NCBI GenBank assembly: GCA_903930515.1
Contig: CAIYYW010000165.1
Span: 1-8,118 of the forward strand
DNA from: an uncultured delta proteobacterium
GTDB taxonomy: Bacteria > RBG-13-61-14 > DRUE01
DNA: 8,118 nucleotides
Reading direction: 5' to 3'
Below the pieces are notes generated by a model. That model was not told the origin of the DNA and did not search any database. It worked only from the letters and a program-made list of their open reading frames with translations. This document shows, piece by piece, positions 1-6,603 of the stretch; the stretch's first letter is position 1; each line of letters begins with the position of its first letter. The translations under genes were made by a program, and so were the position numbers.

Positions 1-2331
1 ATGGACGACCAACTGGTGCAGATCCCCTGGGAACTGCTTTACAACGGCGCTGAATTCCTCTGCCTGCGCTACAACATCGGCAGAATCGTGAGCACGCAGC
101 AGAGGGTTTCCGAGGCGCAGACCCGCAAGGTGGCGCATCCGCTCAAGATGCTGATCCTGGCCGACCCTCGCGGAGACCTTCCGGAGAGCGCGCGCGAGGG
201 CGTATTGCTCAGGGCAGAGTTGGATCATTACCCGGACCTGGTCAGCGTCAATGTCAAGTCCAGCCGGATAGACCGGAACTACATCCTTTCCCGGATCCGG
301 GACTACGACCTGATCCATTACGCCGGGCATGCGGATTATGATCCCAAGAATCCGGGCGAGTCCGGCTGGCTGATCGCGGACGGAAAACTTAAGGCCGAGG
401 AGATCAGCAACCTTACCGGCAAGAAGCCGATGCCGGCCTTGGTCCTGGCCAACGGATGTCAGAGCGGCCAGACCGACTCCTGGGCGATCAATGAAAATTA
501 CGAGAGCGAAATCTTCGGACTCGCCAACGCCTTCCTGGTTTCGGGAGTCCAGCATTATATCGGCACCTTCTGGGAAATATTGGACGAGCCGGGCCGGGAA
601 TTTTCCGTGGCCTTTTACAAGGAGGTTTTGGAGGGCGGCAGCGTGGGCGAGGCGGTGAAGGTTGCGCGGAAACATTTGATTGACAAATACGGCGAAGAAA
701 CCATTGTCTGGGCCAGCTATATGCTTTACGGAGACCCGAGCTTCAGCTATCTGGGTCAGGCCATGCCCAAGAGCGAGGAGAAGGAAGAGGAAGTCCGACC
801 GGAGAGATACCCTCCTCAGGAAATGCAACTTCGGGGAGCCGGAGCGGAGATGGCATCTCCCAAGAGCAGTATGGGCAAATGGATCGGGATCGGGATCGCG
901 GCAGTCGCCCTGCTCATTTGCGGAATCTGGCTCTTCACCAGCGGGGTTTCGGTGAAGGTTCCGGAAGACGCCCTTGCCAAGGCCTACGCGCAGTTGGAAA
1001 AAGGAGACTTGAAATCAGCGGAAGCGGCTTTTGCCGGACTCTCGGAAAAACGCGGAGACGCCAAGGTCCGTGGATTTGAGGGACTGGCCGGGGTGGCTTT
1101 CCAGCGCAACGACCTTCCCCAGGCGAAGGACTACGCGACCAAGTCTATCCAGATGGACCCGAACGCGATCTACCCTCATATTATTCTCGGCAATATCGCC
1201 TATAACCAGAATGACCCGGCGACCGCGGACGCTGAATACCGGGCCGCGATTGCGGGCGTGAACGGCAAGCCCTGGATGAAATCAGAGGCCTACAACCGGC
1301 TGGGGAGAATCGCGAGCGAAAAAGGACAGGACCAGGTCGCGCTCCGGAACTACCAGGACGCGGTGAAGGAAGACCCTAAGAACGCCGACGCCTCTGTTAA
1401 TTTGGGACAGAAATTGCTCTCTTTGGGCAATCCGGCCCAGGCGCAAACGGCTTTTAAATCCGGCCTGGCCGGGAACCCGGACGATTCCACCCTGTCAATG
1501 CTCCTCGCCGAGTCCATCCGGCAGACCCAGGAGGCGATTGCGGACAAGGAACACGCGGCGCAACTTAACCAGGAAATCTCGGACCTGGTCAAGAGATACA
1601 AGGAAGGCAGGGTCGGCCCGGCTCCGGCGGCAGAGGACCAATGGACTTCCAAGCCCATCACCCTGGCCTTGGTGGACTTTGAGACCAAGGGCAAGCTGGG
1701 GATGATGGAAGGCGAGGATGATTTCCTCAGACTAGCCATCACCAACTCCCTGAAGGAAACCGGAAGGATCCGAGTGGTGGAAAGAGAGAAGCTGGACAAG
1801 GTGATCCAGGAACTCAGTCTCTCTTCCAGCGAACTGGCCTCGGACCAGACCCGTCTCCAACTGGGCAAACTAATGAGCGCGCGCCTGATTGCGACCGGGA
1901 GCATCATCCGCTACCAGGGAAAGCTCCAGATGAGCCTCCGCCTGATTGAGACCGAGACCAGCGAGGTCAAGGTGGCGCTCACCTCGGAGGCCTTCCCGGA
2001 AAACACGGACGCGGGAGAAGTGGCCAAGGGCTTTGTCGGGCAATTGGCCGGGGAATTGAAAAAGGCCTATCCGCTAAGGGGGGAGATCGTTCAGATTTCC
2101 GGGGGCGAGCTGGTGCTCAACATCGGTAGCGGGGTCGGACTCAAGGCCGGAACCAAGATGAGGGTGCTGGATGAGCGTAAAGTCAAAATCGGCGATAAAC
2201 TATCCACTACCAGGCTGGAAACGGGAACCATTGAAGCGACCCGATCCGAAGACCAGCTGGGATACGCGAAGCAAGTGGAAGCGAAGAGCCCGTTCAAGGT
2301 CGGGATGAAGGCGGAGGAGATCGTAGAATAA
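1..2331 (+). CDS. CHAT caspase-like protease, TM-anchored, with TPR, CsgG-like and FlgT_C-like domains (probably 5' partial)
   Basis: Residues 1-250 are a CHAT (caspase/separase-fold) cysteine protease domain. It shows the strand motif IPWELLYNG at 8-16, a histidine motif HYAGH with probable catalytic His110, a cysteine motif ALVLANGCQSG with probable nucleophile Cys153, and the typical closing YGDPSFSY. A charged linker (about 256-290) leads to one hydrophobic helix at about 294-314. Residues 321-520 form TPR-like helical repeats. Residues 552-690 resemble CsgG-family domains (LALVDF, IRVVEREKLDKVIQEL, LGKLMSARLIATGSI), and 690-776 resemble the FlgT C-terminal beta domain. A lysine before the helix suggests that the protease lies in the cytosol and the TPR/CsgG part in the periplasm; this topology is inferred. 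CHAT domains normally have more sequence before the IPWELL strand, so the ATG at base 1 may be internal and the gene truncated by the window. The substrate is unknown. The stop is at 2329-2331, 22 bases before gene 2. Confidence 0.9.
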   Translation: MDDQLVQIPWELLYNGAEFLCLRYNIGRIVSTQQRVSEAQTRKVAHPLKMLILADPRGDLPESAREGVLLRAELDHYPDLVSVNVKSSRIDRNYILSRIRDYDLIHYAGHADYDPKNPGESGWLIADGKLKAEEISNLTGKKPMPALVLANGCQSGQTDSWAINENYESEIFGLANAFLVSGVQHYIGTFWEILDEPGREFSVAFYKEVLEGGSVGEAVKVARKHLIDKYGEETIVWASYMLYGDPSFSYLGQAMPKSEEKEEEVRPERYPPQEMQLRGAGAEMASPKSSMGKWIGIGIAAVALLICGIWLFTSGVSVKVPEDALAKAYAQLEKGDLKSAEAAFAGLSEKRGDAKVRGFEGLAGVAFQRNDLPQAKDYATKSIQMDPNAIYPHIILGNIAYNQNDPATADAEYRAAIAGVNGKPWMKSEAYNRLGRIASEKGQDQVALRNYQDAVKEDPKNADASVNLGQKLLSLGNPAQAQTAFKSGLAGNPDDSTLSMLLAESIRQTQEAIADKEHAAQLNQEISDLVKRYKEGRVGPAPAAEDQWTSKPITLALVDFETKGKLGMMEGEDDFLRLAITNSLKETGRIRVVEREKLDKVIQELSLSSSELASDQTRLQLGKLMSARLIATGSIIRYQGKLQMSLRLIETETSEVKVALTSEAFPENTDAGEVAKGFVGQLAGELKKAYPLRGEIVQISGGELVLNIGSGVGLKAGTKMRVLDERKVKIGDKLSTTRLETGTIEATRSEDQLGYAKQVEAKSPFKVGMKAEEIVE
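877..945 (+). other. Single transmembrane segment in the CHAT protein
   Basis: Residues 293-315 of the first gene form an uncharged run rich in Ile, Ala, Leu and Val (core GIGIAAVALLICGIWLF). A lysine lies just before it, and it is followed by a short polar stretch and the TPR region. It separates the protease domain from the TPR/CsgG-like part. The positive flank on the N-terminal side favours N-in/C-out orientation, which is inferred. Confidence 0.85.
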
Positions 2332-2353
2332 GGATGACCCGAAAGATGTGGCG

Positions 2354-2830
2354 ATGATGAAAAAACTGGTAATAGCAATAACGCTGGGCCTGCTCATATG
2401 GGCAGGCCCGGTTTTTTCCGAGCCGGCCCCGGAATGCGTCAAGGAGGGGGTTAAATACGGGGTGACCCGGGGCAGCTTCCGATCCGAGTGGTGGAACTAT
2501 CTGGAGCGAGGAGAGAGTTACCTGGCCGGCGGCTGCTATCAGGCCGCGCTCAATGACCTGGACCAGGCCATCGCGCTCCGGGGCAAGCAGGTCAAGAACG
2601 AGCGCGACAAGAAACGGGCGCGCACCTACGGCCTTCATTTCGTGGATTATTTCGCGCACCGAGAAAAAGGGATCGCGCTGTATTATTTGGGAATCCATCA
2701 AGAAGCGCGGGTTGAGCTGGAACGAAGCTTGGGCTATACTGATTCTGAGCGGGCCAGGCAATACCTGGAGATGGCAAAGCAGGCTGAGCAAAAACCCGGG
2801 CAAAAAGCCGGCGCAATCCCGGCTAATTAA
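2354..2830 (+). CDS. Small exported TPR-like protein, paralogue of the next gene's N-terminal domain
   Basis: The protein has 158 residues. It begins with a lysine pair and a hydrophobic core (KKLVIAITLGLLIWAG), consistent with a Sec signal peptide cut near VFS/EP at about residue 22. The mature part is a single helical TPR-like domain carrying two strong blocks, GSFRSEWWNY and RARTYGLHFVDYF, and ending in a polar Lys/Gln-rich tail. Aligned by hand without gaps to residues 26-139 of the next gene product, it matches at about 66 of 114 positions, including two cysteines (28 and 61 here), which may form a disulfide in the periplasm. The ATG at 2354 is chosen because it gives a clean signal peptide; GTG 2348 and ATG 2357 are alternatives, and the ribosome-binding site is weak (GAAAG at 2341-2345). 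Function is unknown. It is probably a periplasmic partner of its neighbours or a split-off copy of the module. Confidence 0.85.
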   Translation: MMKKLVIAITLGLLIWAGPVFSEPAPECVKEGVKYGVTRGSFRSEWWNYLERGESYLAGGCYQAALNDLDQAIALRGKQVKNERDKKRARTYGLHFVDYFAHREKGIALYYLGIHQEARVELERSLGYTDSERARQYLEMAKQAEQKPGQKAGAIPAN

Positions 2831-3284
2831 TAACAAATAACCGGAAATTAAGGGAAGGATAAATAAAATGAAAAAAGTCTTCCTCGCAACCGCCTTATCT
2901 TTATTGTTCCTCGGACAAAGCGCCCTCGCGCAAAAGGCGCAGGAATGTCTCAAGAACGGGGTCAAATACGGAGTGACCAAGGGCAGCTTCCGGGCCGAAT
3001 GGTGGAACTACCAGGAGCGGGCGACCAGCTACCTTGACGGGGAATGTTACGCGCCGGCGCTGAGCGACATTGAGGAAGCGGTCAAGATCAGGACCGCGCT
3101 GGTGAAAAAAGATTGCGACCAGAGAAGGGCGCGCACTTACGGGATGCACTTCGTGGATTATTTCGGACATCGCGGACGGGGCGTGGCCTTATATAATCTC
3201 GGCCGGCTGGACGAGGCTCAAAAGGAATTGGAACTCAGCCTGTCCTGCGTGGAATCCAACCAGGCCCAATACTATCTGGACCTG
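2432..3284 (+). repeat. Tandem paralogous module shared by genes 2 and 3 (copies at 2432-2773 and 2943-3284)
   Basis: The two copies encode 114 residues each and align without gaps, with about 66 identities by hand count. The most conserved parts are KYGVT.GSFR.EWWNY..ER near the start and RARTYG.HFVDYF.HR in the middle. Both keep two cysteines in the same places; the second copy has two more. The arrangement points to an old gene or domain duplication within the operon. Confidence 0.85.
2851..2859 (+). promoter_or_regulatory. Ribosome binding site for the gene at 2868
   Basis: AGGGAAGGA ends eight bases before the ATG at 2868. It fixes that start, which also opens a textbook signal peptide. 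Confidence 0.7.
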
Positions 3285-4982
3285 ATCCGCAAGAGCAACC
3301 TGGAAAAAACCGGATGGGACAAAACCCCTCCCAGCCTGGAGCTCACGGACCCGAAGGACAAGAGCTATCTCAATCAGGCCGAGGTTCAACTCCGGGGAAA
3401 GGCCTGGGACGATTCCTTTGTCAAGGAAATCTGGGTCGGAATGGATTCGCTCCCGATCCCGATTTCGGAAAAGGAAATATCCTTCCAGGAGCAGATGGAG
3501 CTCCAGCCGGGCTGGAACAATTTCAAAATCCGCGTGGTGGACCTGACCGGGAAAGAAACCGGCAAGGATTATTCCCTCTATTTGGACCAGCAAGGCCCGG
3601 AGGTGAACATCCTGGAGATCAAGCAGATTTCCGGACCGGAGATTGAAGTGATCGGACAGGTCCAGGACGACGGCGGGATCGCCAAGCTCACCCTCAATAA
3701 TAAAGAAGTGTCCATTGAAAACGGCAAATCCTTCCAGATCAAACTCAATGTGGCCTCGGACTGGAAAATCTGGTTCAAGGCTATTGACCGGGCCGGGAAC
3801 CAGACCGAGGGGATGATCAATCTGAATTCCGAGCCCAAAGGGGCGATGCTGGAAACGCCCCCTCCTTACCGAGAAGCGAGCCTGGACGGAGACTGGCAGA
3901 CCTACCCTTCCCTTCCCTATCAGACCCTGAGCTTCCGGATGATGGAACTGGGAGAGGCCGAGGCCCAGGTGGCCTTCACCGAGATGTATTGGGACCTGAA
4001 GAAAAAGTATGAGAATTATACCGATACCGAGCCGCCTTTGATCAAGCTCAAGGGGCTCAGGACCGAGCAGACGGTTTATTTCCCGGAAATATATCTGGAA
4101 GGACTGGTGACCGACCAGAACCAGATCACCGAACTGACCATCAACGGCAAGAAGGTGGGCCGGGCCCAGAGCAAGAACATCTTCTTCAACCAGATTCTGC
4201 CCCTCAGCCCGGGCGCGAATAAAATCCTGATCCGGGCCAAGGACCCCAATGGGAATGTGGCTGAGAAGACGCTCCGGATCTTCCGGGTGACCCCCGCGGT
4301 GCATACGATGGAGAGCCGGATGGTGGTGAGCATGCTCCCCTTCTATCAGTCCGGGCAGATCCAGGAAATCGGGTCCGTGGCTTATGATAATTTGATCTCC
4401 GCAATCGTGGGCCAGAAGCGGTTCCACTTCGTGGACCGCGCCAAGGTGGAAGCGATTGTGCGGGAGTTGAAATTAAGCGCGGAGCAACTGGTGGACCCGG
4501 CGTACACCCTCAAGGTCGGGAAAATGACCGCCTCCGAGGCGATGATCATCGGCTCGGTCAAGGAAGCCCCCAACAGCATTGAGGTTTACGCCCAGCTTTT
4601 GGATGTGGAAAGCGGAGAAGTGCTTGCGGAAAAAGACGCCTTTAACCGGGACAAAAGCCTGGAATCTTTGAAATATCTTTCCCGCGGTCTCGCCATCCGT
4701 CTCCGCGAGGAATTCCCCCTCCTGGAGGGCAAAGTGATCAAGATGGACGGCAAAAATGCGGTCCTGGATTTGGGGTCATCTCAAAAAATGAAACCGGGAA
4801 TGAGGGTGATCTTTTTCGCGGAAAAAGAAATGACCGATGCTGAAACCGGAATGAAATTAGGCTATACTACGGATCAGGTCGGGATGGGTAAAATTATTAC
4901 GGTTTCTGACCGGATGAGCACCGCGGAGCCGGTCGGAAAGAGCGGAGCGGTCAGTTCGCAGGAAAAGGTAATTACCAAATAG
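2868..4982 (+). CDS. Exported protein: TPR-like module, three Ig-like domains, CsgG-like and FlgT_C-like tail
   Basis: The protein has 704 residues. Residues 1-21 are a signal peptide ending SALA before Gln22; no lipobox is present, so unlike true CsgG it is probably not a lipoprotein. Residues 26-145 are the TPR-like module shared with gene 2, with four cysteines (27, 60, 83, 127). Three beta-rich Ig-like domains follow at about 152-240, 242-320 and 387-474. The first and third open with TPP or EPP and contain patterns such as ITELTINGKKV, like glucodextranase-B/bacterial Ig domains. Residues 321-386 are an unassigned linker. Residues 484-612 are CsgG-like (VVSMLPF, FHFVDRAKVEAIVREL, KVGKMTASEAMIIGSV), and about 615-704 resemble the FlgT C-terminal domain. 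The tail parallels that of the CHAT protein. It probably acts in the periplasm or at the inner face of the outer membrane. Pore formation as in CsgG is not shown. The gap to gene 4 is 37 bases. Confidence 0.9.
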   Translation: MKKVFLATALSLLFLGQSALAQKAQECLKNGVKYGVTKGSFRAEWWNYQERATSYLDGECYAPALSDIEEAVKIRTALVKKDCDQRRARTYGMHFVDYFGHRGRGVALYNLGRLDEAQKELELSLSCVESNQAQYYLDLIRKSNLEKTGWDKTPPSLELTDPKDKSYLNQAEVQLRGKAWDDSFVKEIWVGMDSLPIPISEKEISFQEQMELQPGWNNFKIRVVDLTGKETGKDYSLYLDQQGPEVNILEIKQISGPEIEVIGQVQDDGGIAKLTLNNKEVSIENGKSFQIKLNVASDWKIWFKAIDRAGNQTEGMINLNSEPKGAMLETPPPYREASLDGDWQTYPSLPYQTLSFRMMELGEAEAQVAFTEMYWDLKKKYENYTDTEPPLIKLKGLRTEQTVYFPEIYLEGLVTDQNQITELTINGKKVGRAQSKNIFFNQILPLSPGANKILIRAKDPNGNVAEKTLRIFRVTPAVHTMESRMVVSMLPFYQSGQIQEIGSVAYDNLISAIVGQKRFHFVDRAKVEAIVRELKLSAEQLVDPAYTLKVGKMTASEAMIIGSVKEAPNSIEVYAQLLDVESGEVLAEKDAFNRDKSLESLKYLSRGLAIRLREEFPLLEGKVIKMDGKNAVLDLGSSQKMKPGMRVIFFAEKEMTDAETGMKLGYTTDQVGMGKIITVSDRMSTAEPVGKSGAVSSQEKVITK

Positions 4983-5011: not shown

Positions 5012-5019
5012 GTTTGGAA

Positions 5020-6603
5020 GTGAAATACTTGAAGAGCAATGCTTTTCTCTTGTTGGCGCTGGTTTTCGCCTTGAAATCTTCAATTTTGGCTGCGGAATTC
5101 CAAGGAGATGTCACCCCCTATTTCTTCTATACCTCGCCCCCGACCCCGGTCGGATCAGGGGCAAGGGCGATGGGAGTCGGAGGAGCCTTCATCGCGGTGG
5201 CGGATGACGGGACCGCCGCGAACTGGAACCCCGCGGCGCTGATCCAGCTGGAGCTTCCCGAAGCGAGCATGGTCCTGGACGGGGACTTTCGGACGATCGA
5301 CGGCCAGAGCGCCAGCCTCTACGATGTCAACTATTTAAGCGGCTCTTACCCGTTCACGGTCAAGGACATCAATATGATTATCTCATTCAATTACCAGCGG
5401 CTTTACGACTATAACCTTAATTTTAAAAATAATGTTGAGTATGCGGTGGACGATAGCGGGAATCAAGCCACCTGGCTGGTTCCCGGAAACGGCAATCCCG
5501 CAAGTGTCACTCAATATGATGTGGTGACGATGAGCGGACTCAATGAGAAAAAGAATTCAGAAATCACCGCGGACAATTCCGGGGAATTGGGAGCCCTTTC
5601 CCCCGCTTTCGCCATTCAGGTTACGCCCAAGTTCAGCCTGGGAATAACCGCCAATTTCTGGAAGGACGGCTGGCTTGATCGGGGTCGGGAATATCAGAGC
5701 AGGCACGAGGAAAAAGGCAATGGAGAGTCCCGCCAGGTGAATTATCTATGGTATGATAGTGATGGAGACTGCACCTGTAATGGAGGAAAGCCTTGCTCTC
5801 CTAATGATTATATTGATGATCTTTCTTGCGTGGATGAATTGATTGATCCGGCTAAATTAGGCAATCCCAATCCGCTTTATTCCAATCCCAAAACTTTTCA
5901 ATTTGACACCATCGTCAGCCAGAGAATGCGGATGCAAGGGGAGAGTTATAACCTTGGATTGCTCTGGGACATTTCTCCCCGCTGGACCATGGGCGCGGTT
6001 TACCGGACCGGGGCGGAACTGAATGTGGACCGGGAAATCAGACAGTTTCAACATCAGACCTCGGCCTGGGCCAGTTTGAATCAGGCCGCCTCGGTAGGAG
6101 AGTTTAACTATGACGAAAAAATCTACCTCCCCTCTTCTTACGGACTGGGAGCCGGGTTCCGCTATTCGGACGCGCTTACCATCAGCGCGGATGTCACGAT
6201 GATGAGGTGGGACGAATATAATTACGAATTGGAAGACGGAACCAGATACAGCCTGATCACCGGGCTGAAACAAGGGATTAATGATGTTGACCCGACCCTG
6301 ACCGGCCGGATCGGCGCGGAATATTTAATCATCAAGCCCAAGTATGTGGTTCCGATCCGGGGAGGATTGTTCTATGACCAGGAGCCGGCATTGGACCGGC
6401 CGGACAGCTTCTACGGGCTGACGGTCGGGAGCGGGTTCGCCTATAAATGGCTGGTTATGGACATCGCTTATTTCTACCGCTTCGGCAGGGATGTGGCAGT
6501 GGGATACGCCGCGAACGCGGAACGGACCGAGCTGATGGAGCAAGCCAAGGGGGATGTGGATCAACACCAGGTGATGCTTTCCGGAATTGTCCATATGCCG
6601 TGA
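5020..6603 (+). CDS. FadL/PorV-like outer-membrane beta-barrel protein
   Basis: The protein has 527 residues from a GTG start chosen by the Shine-Dalgarno at 5005-5011. Residues 1-24 are a signal peptide (hydrophobic core AFLLLALVFA, cut near ILA/AE). Shortly after, GSGARAMGVGGAFIAVADD followed by WNPAAL is the hallmark N-terminal motif of FadL/TodX-type and PorV/UPF0164-type outer-membrane proteins. The rest alternates short polar and aromatic/hydrophobic stretches ending in aromatic positions, as in barrel strands, for example FSLGITANFW, YNLGLLWDI, WTMGAVYRTG and YGLGAGFRY. FadL members take up hydrophobic compounds; PorV-like members serve as surface-protein shuttles or anchors in type IX secretion. 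Which role applies here cannot be told. An acidic cysteine-rich insert (residues about 244-270) is unusual. The C-terminus (GIVHMP) lacks the usual final aromatic residue. Its position just before a large secreted protein gene fits a secretion or anchoring role, by inference. Confidence 0.88.
   Translation: MKYLKSNAFLLLALVFALKSSILAAEFQGDVTPYFFYTSPPTPVGSGARAMGVGGAFIAVADDGTAANWNPAALIQLELPEASMVLDGDFRTIDGQSASLYDVNYLSGSYPFTVKDINMIISFNYQRLYDYNLNFKNNVEYAVDDSGNQATWLVPGNGNPASVTQYDVVTMSGLNEKKNSEITADNSGELGALSPAFAIQVTPKFSLGITANFWKDGWLDRGREYQSRHEEKGNGESRQVNYLWYDSDGDCTCNGGKPCSPNDYIDDLSCVDELIDPAKLGNPNPLYSNPKTFQFDTIVSQRMRMQGESYNLGLLWDISPRWTMGAVYRTGAELNVDREIRQFQHQTSAWASLNQAASVGEFNYDEKIYLPSSYGLGAGFRYSDALTISADVTMMRWDEYNYELEDGTRYSLITGLKQGINDVDPTLTGRIGAEYLIIKPKYVVPIRGGLFYDQEPALDRPDSFYGLTVGSGFAYKWLVMDIAYFYRFGRDVAVGYAANAERTELMEQAKGDVDQHQVMLSGIVHMP

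Follow-up and report, generated by a model that had tools for sequence, protein, structure and literature searches.

Transmembrane CHAT proteins encoded beside ECF-type sigma and anti-sigma factors: a possible route from the cell envelope to gene expression

Gene content of the window

The stretch of DNA analyzed here (the window) is a whole contig of 8118 bases (G000:C165). It opens with ORF1, which encodes 776 residues of a protein combining a caspase-like CHAT domain, a membrane helix, TPR repeats, a CsgG/LpoB-like region and a possible FlgT_C-like region, and continues with genes for exported, outer-membrane and secreted proteins (Table 1). A preliminary description of this DNA had taken ORF1 as a whole protein. 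ORF1 is instead a fragment, since its CHAT match starts at position 32 of the 289 in the profile and the full-length ortholog (L007) has 1123 aa, with 346 more upstream residues; coordinate 1 is not the gene start, the contig edge having cut off the true start together with about 346 residues.

Table 1. Features of the 8118-base window, with the evidence for each assignment.
Feature	Position	Strand	Evidence
3' part of cyclase-CHAT-TM-TPR-CsgG gene (ORF1)	1..2331	+	Pfam, contig edge, L007 ortholog
CHAT caspase-like domain, lacking the first ~31 positions of the profile	4..735	+	PF12770, E=1.4e-31
Catalytic His110 (His456 of L007)	328..330	+	Alignments, kept in 29/29 homologs
Catalytic Cys153 (Cys499 of L007)	457..459	+	Alignments, kept in 29/29 homologs
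Single transmembrane helix, residues 295-313	883..939	+	Hydropathy 2.42; TM in 27/29 homologs
TPR repeats, predicted periplasmic	985..1530	+	Several TPR Pfam matches
CsgG/LpoB-like domain, predicted periplasmic	1738..1920	+	PF03783 2.5e-11, PF13036 2.6e-5
FlgT_C-like C-terminal domain, weak	2068..2328	+	L035 PF16538 2.4e-4; TsaP/FlgT profile matches
Small exported TPR-like protein	2348..2830	+	phmmer to next protein 7.7e-48
Exported TPR / Ig-like / CsgG-like protein (PERI)	2868..4982	+	Pfam, synteny
PorV/FadL-like outer-membrane barrel	5014..6603	+	PF03349 6.6e-12; synteny
Secreted protein, marginal cohesin-like domain, open at contig end	6659..8116	+	PF00963 5.9e-5

The CHAT domain of ORF1 (residues 2-245) scores 110.5 bits against a curated cut-off of 24. 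The catalytic pair proposed earlier, His110 and Cys153, is indeed intact, the former lying in the motif HYAGH and the latter in NGCQSG; both residues are found in ORF1 and in all 29 homologs, and are 43 residues apart in the L007 ortholog. A single helix between the CHAT and TPR parts, also proposed earlier, is confirmed by a hydropathy of 2.42 for segment 295-313 (the next best segment reaches 1.23) and by its presence in 27 of the 29 homologs. The CsgG-like stretch (residues 580-640) covers only positions 44-103 of the 210 in the PF03783 profile, and LpoB matches the same stretch. The earlier CsgG assignment holds as a partial match to an LpoB-like fold; because less than one third of the CsgG profile is matched, a curli-channel reading was rejected. 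For FlgT_C there is no Pfam match in the window protein; homolog L035 matches PF16538 with 21.9 bits, under the curated cut-off of 27, and the region gives weak profile matches to TsaP and FlgT (E 0.025-0.26). Structure prediction from a two-sequence alignment of the L007 ortholog and the window protein was unusable (pLDDT 35.5).

The small protein encoded after ORF1 resembles the N-terminus of the product of the gene that follows it, PERI, and looks like a partial tandem duplication of that gene. PERI is the conserved next gene in most loci, and its product and the CHAT protein have homologous C-terminal modules (match 2.1e-14). The barrel, likewise a conserved operon member, matches the PorV family (4e-14) and BamG (1.3e-18), both under the curated cut-offs. 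The PF00963 match of the last protein falls just under the curated cut-off, and a similar large secreted protein adjoins the corresponding operon in genome G002. Large secreted proteins with cohesin-like similarity were seen at the operon end both in the window and in another locus (L020:1-6405), and they may form a surface structure that the relay proposed below monitors or controls.

Homologs and their gene neighborhoods

The full-length ortholog, from an uncultured delta-proteobacterial metagenome-assembled genome (MAG), is 79% identical to the window protein. It consists of a coiled-coil-like stretch, a class III cyclase domain (PF00211, 2.3e-24), CHAT (4.9e-40), the membrane helix, TPR repeats and the CsgG-like part, and directly upstream of its gene lie two more, one for a sigma factor of the ECF type and one for a soluble anti-sigma factor of the zf-HC2 kind, the latter overlapping the CHAT frame by four bases. 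Neither the cyclase nor the sigma/anti-sigma pair had been recognized in the preliminary description, which worked from the truncated gene. G002 shares this gene order, at 56-60% identity. A search of the window's own assembly for the upstream genes returned no cyclase fragment of the ORF1 gene and only an ordinary anti-sigma factor (C133). Genome G001, from the same genus as the window organism, matches L007 exactly, and we infer the sigma/anti-sigma partnership in the window's organism from this shared genus and the same order.

The cyclase is found only in a subset, namely six complete CHAT proteins and a fragment in G049. Residues D59, K99, D103, D161, N164 and R168 of L007 are kept in 6/6 complete cyclase-bearing homologs, and the G049 fragment keeps the same catalytic residues. 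With two metal-binding Asp, a Lys/Asp pair and an Asn/Arg pair, the L007 domain qualifies by sequence as a class III nucleotide cyclase; its best PDB relative is Ma1120 (1.6e-33).

In total, 29 CHAT homologs were collected, from at least five phyla as judged by genome grouping, several of the genomes being fragmentary MAGs. The gene is present in all three genomes examined from the window's phylum. Among 289 diverse genomes surveyed, four had it, and these led to G188/G291, to G266 and G293-G297, and to G049, whose copy is cut off inside the cyclase; the anti-sigma profile alone then found G273, G136 and G236, and with it all eight examined genomes of the G136/G273 phylum were found. Each of the 29 CHAT proteins read retains the catalytic His and Cys. 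The recurrent combination of CHAT, membrane helix and outer domains anticipated in the preliminary description was therefore found, with the catalytic pair always kept and with differing outer domains: either TPR-CsgG-FlgT_C-like or, in the G136/G273 phylum, PEGA (Pfam on L085; sequence alignment for the others). The two proteins lacking the helix after CHAT are L089, which ends after CHAT, and L036, in which an ATPase-like region (MAPRQTGKTTF; L036:705-3026) replaces the helix and outer domains and whose gene has no adjoining sigma pair. The residue two positions before the catalytic Cys is Asn; Arg-specific relatives carry Asp at that position. A conserved RG in the CHAT-to-helix linker was considered as a self-cleavage site and discarded, as it occurs in the window lineage and G002 but is not general. 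Genome G266 encodes five CHAT paralogs (L033, L034, L035, L036, L058), three with their own adjacent sigma/anti-sigma pair, a multiplicity resembling that of multi-copy cell-surface signaling families. In the G136/G273 phylum, a gene for an exported AhpC/TlpA-like thioredoxin-fold protein lies between the CHAT-TM-PEGA and sigma genes (L085:1551-2108, L086:6513-7061), and its product may be part of the sensor.

The sigma gene near the L007 CHAT gene, which has no counterpart in the window, encodes a sigma factor with regions 2 and 4 in an ECF-like layout, and the family profile matches, along almost its full length (positions 6-200), the ECF sigma factors SigH, RpoE and SigW in the PDB, the best at about 1e-19. 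The anti-sigma factor matches PF13490 (8.9e-7); its family has near-invariant H-x3-C-x2-C zinc ligands and is predicted to bind sigma; its profile matches DdvA and RsiW at the zinc finger. Linkage was observed in both directions. Starting from CHAT, a sigma and/or anti-sigma gene adjoins in 14 of the 17 loci with enough upstream sequence, the exceptions being L036, L049 and L050. Since the pair is convergent with CHAT in L034 and downstream of it in L055, adjacency survives rearrangement. Starting from the anti-sigma profile, a CHAT gene (in G049 the truncated cyclase) adjoins in 23 of 25 informative loci, and L087 and L090 have the sigma pair without CHAT. Nine CHAT genes missed by the CHAT search were found only beside anti-sigma matches, and four ordinary anti-sigma factors matching at the zinc finger only have no CHAT gene within the 3.2-3.3 kb examined.

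Besides the zinc ligands, the most conserved positions of the anti-sigma factors include one Arg in the linker and, in the C-terminal domain, a Phe and a Tyr. This Arg has the zinc finger and a helix on one side and the C-terminal domain on the other, with the linker around it varying in length, and occurs within a proline-containing motif (e.g. LLTPEPVLQPARG or SPVPVRG) in 26/26 anti-sigma factors; automatic alignment placed it in one column in 19/20 and 23/26, and the rest require shifting by eye. The ordinary zf-HC2 anti-sigma factors used for comparison have no such linker motif. Its position and conservation make the Arg a candidate cleavage site, although an invariant Arg could instead bind sigma or CHAT. 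The cleavage-site reading is weakened by the Asn, rather than Asp, before the catalytic Cys, and by Csx30, whose cleavage by the CHAT protease Csx29 depends on no essential residue in the substrate (PMC10028731).

Proposed relay and alternatives

The CHAT domain is likely cytosolic, because the cyclase, which needs ATP, lies on the CHAT side of the helix and the sigma partners are cytosolic. Positive charges are also slightly commoner on that side. The likely topology, as read from sequence, therefore has CHAT inside and the TPR, CsgG-like or PEGA domains outside. The earlier proposal of envelope-to-cytosol signaling stands in that the domain order, the side of the cyclase and the sigma neighbors make such a device well supported by inference, but its reading of ORF1 as the entire protein does not. 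Our preferred interpretation, which we hold to be moderately probable, is a relay in which an envelope-controlled CHAT protease would cleave the anti-sigma factor and free the sigma factor. The conserved relay would comprise an ECF-type sigma factor, a soluble zf-HC2 anti-sigma factor and, in the inner membrane, a CHAT protease whose periplasmic sensor varies, usually joined by a PorV/FadL-like outer-membrane barrel and a periplasmic partner that has the same CsgG-like module. In this relay, a change in the envelope, such as an altered state of the surface-protein assembly whose genes lie nearby, would be sensed by the periplasmic part, perhaps via PERI and its homologous C-terminal module, and the single helix would transmit the signal to CHAT in the cytosol. 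The protease would then cut the anti-sigma linker between the zinc-finger sigma-binding part and the C-terminal domain, with the conserved Arg as the most likely site, which would part the sigma-binding end from the rest. The freed sigma factor would likely target the envelope and surface genes encoded alongside, and cyclase-bearing forms may add a second output in the form of a cyclic nucleotide.

The relay is supported by the Csx29/Csx30/CASP-sigma and CalpL/CalpT precedents, and weakened by the CHAT genes without the pair (L036, L049, L050), the pairs without CHAT (L087, L090) and the CHAT protein without a helix (L089). CHAT might instead be a non-proteolytic switch or anchor that holds the soluble anti-sigma factor with its sigma factor and releases them by conformational change, as FecR-type regulators do. 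A soluble anti-sigma factor with a membrane-bound CHAT partner would fit such an anchor, as would PDB entry 8rot, a 991-aa CHAT-domain protein with a DdvA N-terminus, which indicates that a single polypeptide can contain both zinc finger and CHAT; however, a scaffold would not need a dyad that is kept in 29/29 proteins across great divergence, and we regard this explanation as unlikely. The case for a cyclic nucleotide as the main output, with the envelope part controlling the cyclase and CHAT being regulatory or self-processing, draws on the conservation of all catalytic residues and of the adenylate-type Lys/Asp pair, on the strength of the Ma1120 match and on the cyclase-bearing L049 and L050, which lack the sigma pair. 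Most homologs have no cyclase yet keep CHAT, the helix and the sigma pair, which leaves this reading improbable.

A role in cell death or defense, with a caspase-like protease of the gasdermin or CRISPR type clustered by chance with regulators, appears very improbable: the weak match to the PADLOC CHAT model BovA (9.9e-9) would agree with it, but the neighbors comprise envelope genes that recur, together with the sigma pair, and no gasdermin-like or cas partner was seen by eye in the neighborhoods read. A CRISPR-type origin likewise found no support in the loci examined, no CRISPR-like repeat array being present in six loci, and with no cas-like neighbor by eye and no array in those six loci the proteins do not fall into the type III-E TPR-CHAT (Csx29) class. 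Returning to anti-sigma cleavage, we give an even chance to the broader proposition that transmembrane CHAT proteases outside CRISPR systems are widespread and turn an envelope signal into cytosolic anti-sigma cleavage, some with a cyclase that lets the same receptor give a cyclic nucleotide as second output.

Relation to known systems

These observations suggest a previously undescribed route from the cell envelope to gene expression. Among open-access papers on CHAT together with ECF sigma factors, cyclases or CsgG, only those on Craspase/CASP were relevant, and the family may have been described elsewhere; an open-access search on HetF/PatU3 found nothing. The experimentally shown CHAT-to-sigma relay belongs to CRISPR systems. 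If the relay proposed here is true, CHAT proteases also serve ordinary envelope signaling in several little-studied phyla, and recruitment could have run from such relays to the CRISPR versions or in the opposite direction. The family would also provide a receptor with one helix, interchangeable sensors and a substrate that is defined and can be tested, and would couple cyclic-nucleotide synthesis directly and physically to a caspase-like protease.

Two of the precedents are CRISPR-linked. When Csx30 is cut by the CHAT protease Csx29 (catalytic residues H615/C658), the ECF sigma factor CASP-sigma is released from inhibition (PMC10028731). Shared with the present family are the 43-residue spacing of His and Cys and the presence in one locus of an ECF sigma factor and a substrate, here a putative one, that resembles an anti-sigma factor; in contrast to that system, no CRISPR or Cas7-11 was seen here, the CHAT protein is anchored in the membrane and has a periplasmic part and in some cases a cyclase, and the anti-sigma factor, unlike Csx30, is a zf-HC2 protein. 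In CalpL/CalpT/CalpS, a signal-activated protease likewise cuts an anti-sigma factor, CalpT being cleaved by CalpL (PMC11417357), and an ECF sigma factor is freed; that system uses a Lon protease and cyclic oligoadenylate, whereas the present one would use CHAT and an envelope sensor. The best PDB match of the CHAT profile is the SAVED-CHAT structure 8tl0 (4.4e-7).

DdvS/DdvA of Myxococcus xanthus also pairs an ECF sigma factor with a zf-HC2 anti-sigma factor, and the DdvA entry 8rot (991 aa) contains CHAT, the match being to its C-terminal end only. In DdvA (8rot/8rw5) the anti-sigma zinc finger forms the N-terminus of a single polypeptide, a fused version of what is here a two-gene arrangement. 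In FecIR, an envelope signal releases an ECF sigma factor, and in RseA/DegS and RsiW such a signal frees it from its anti-sigma factor (PMC10028731). The anti-sigma factors of these three systems span the membrane and are acted on by membrane or periplasmic proteases, whereas in the arrangement described here it is the putative protease that would span the membrane and the anti-sigma factor that is soluble.
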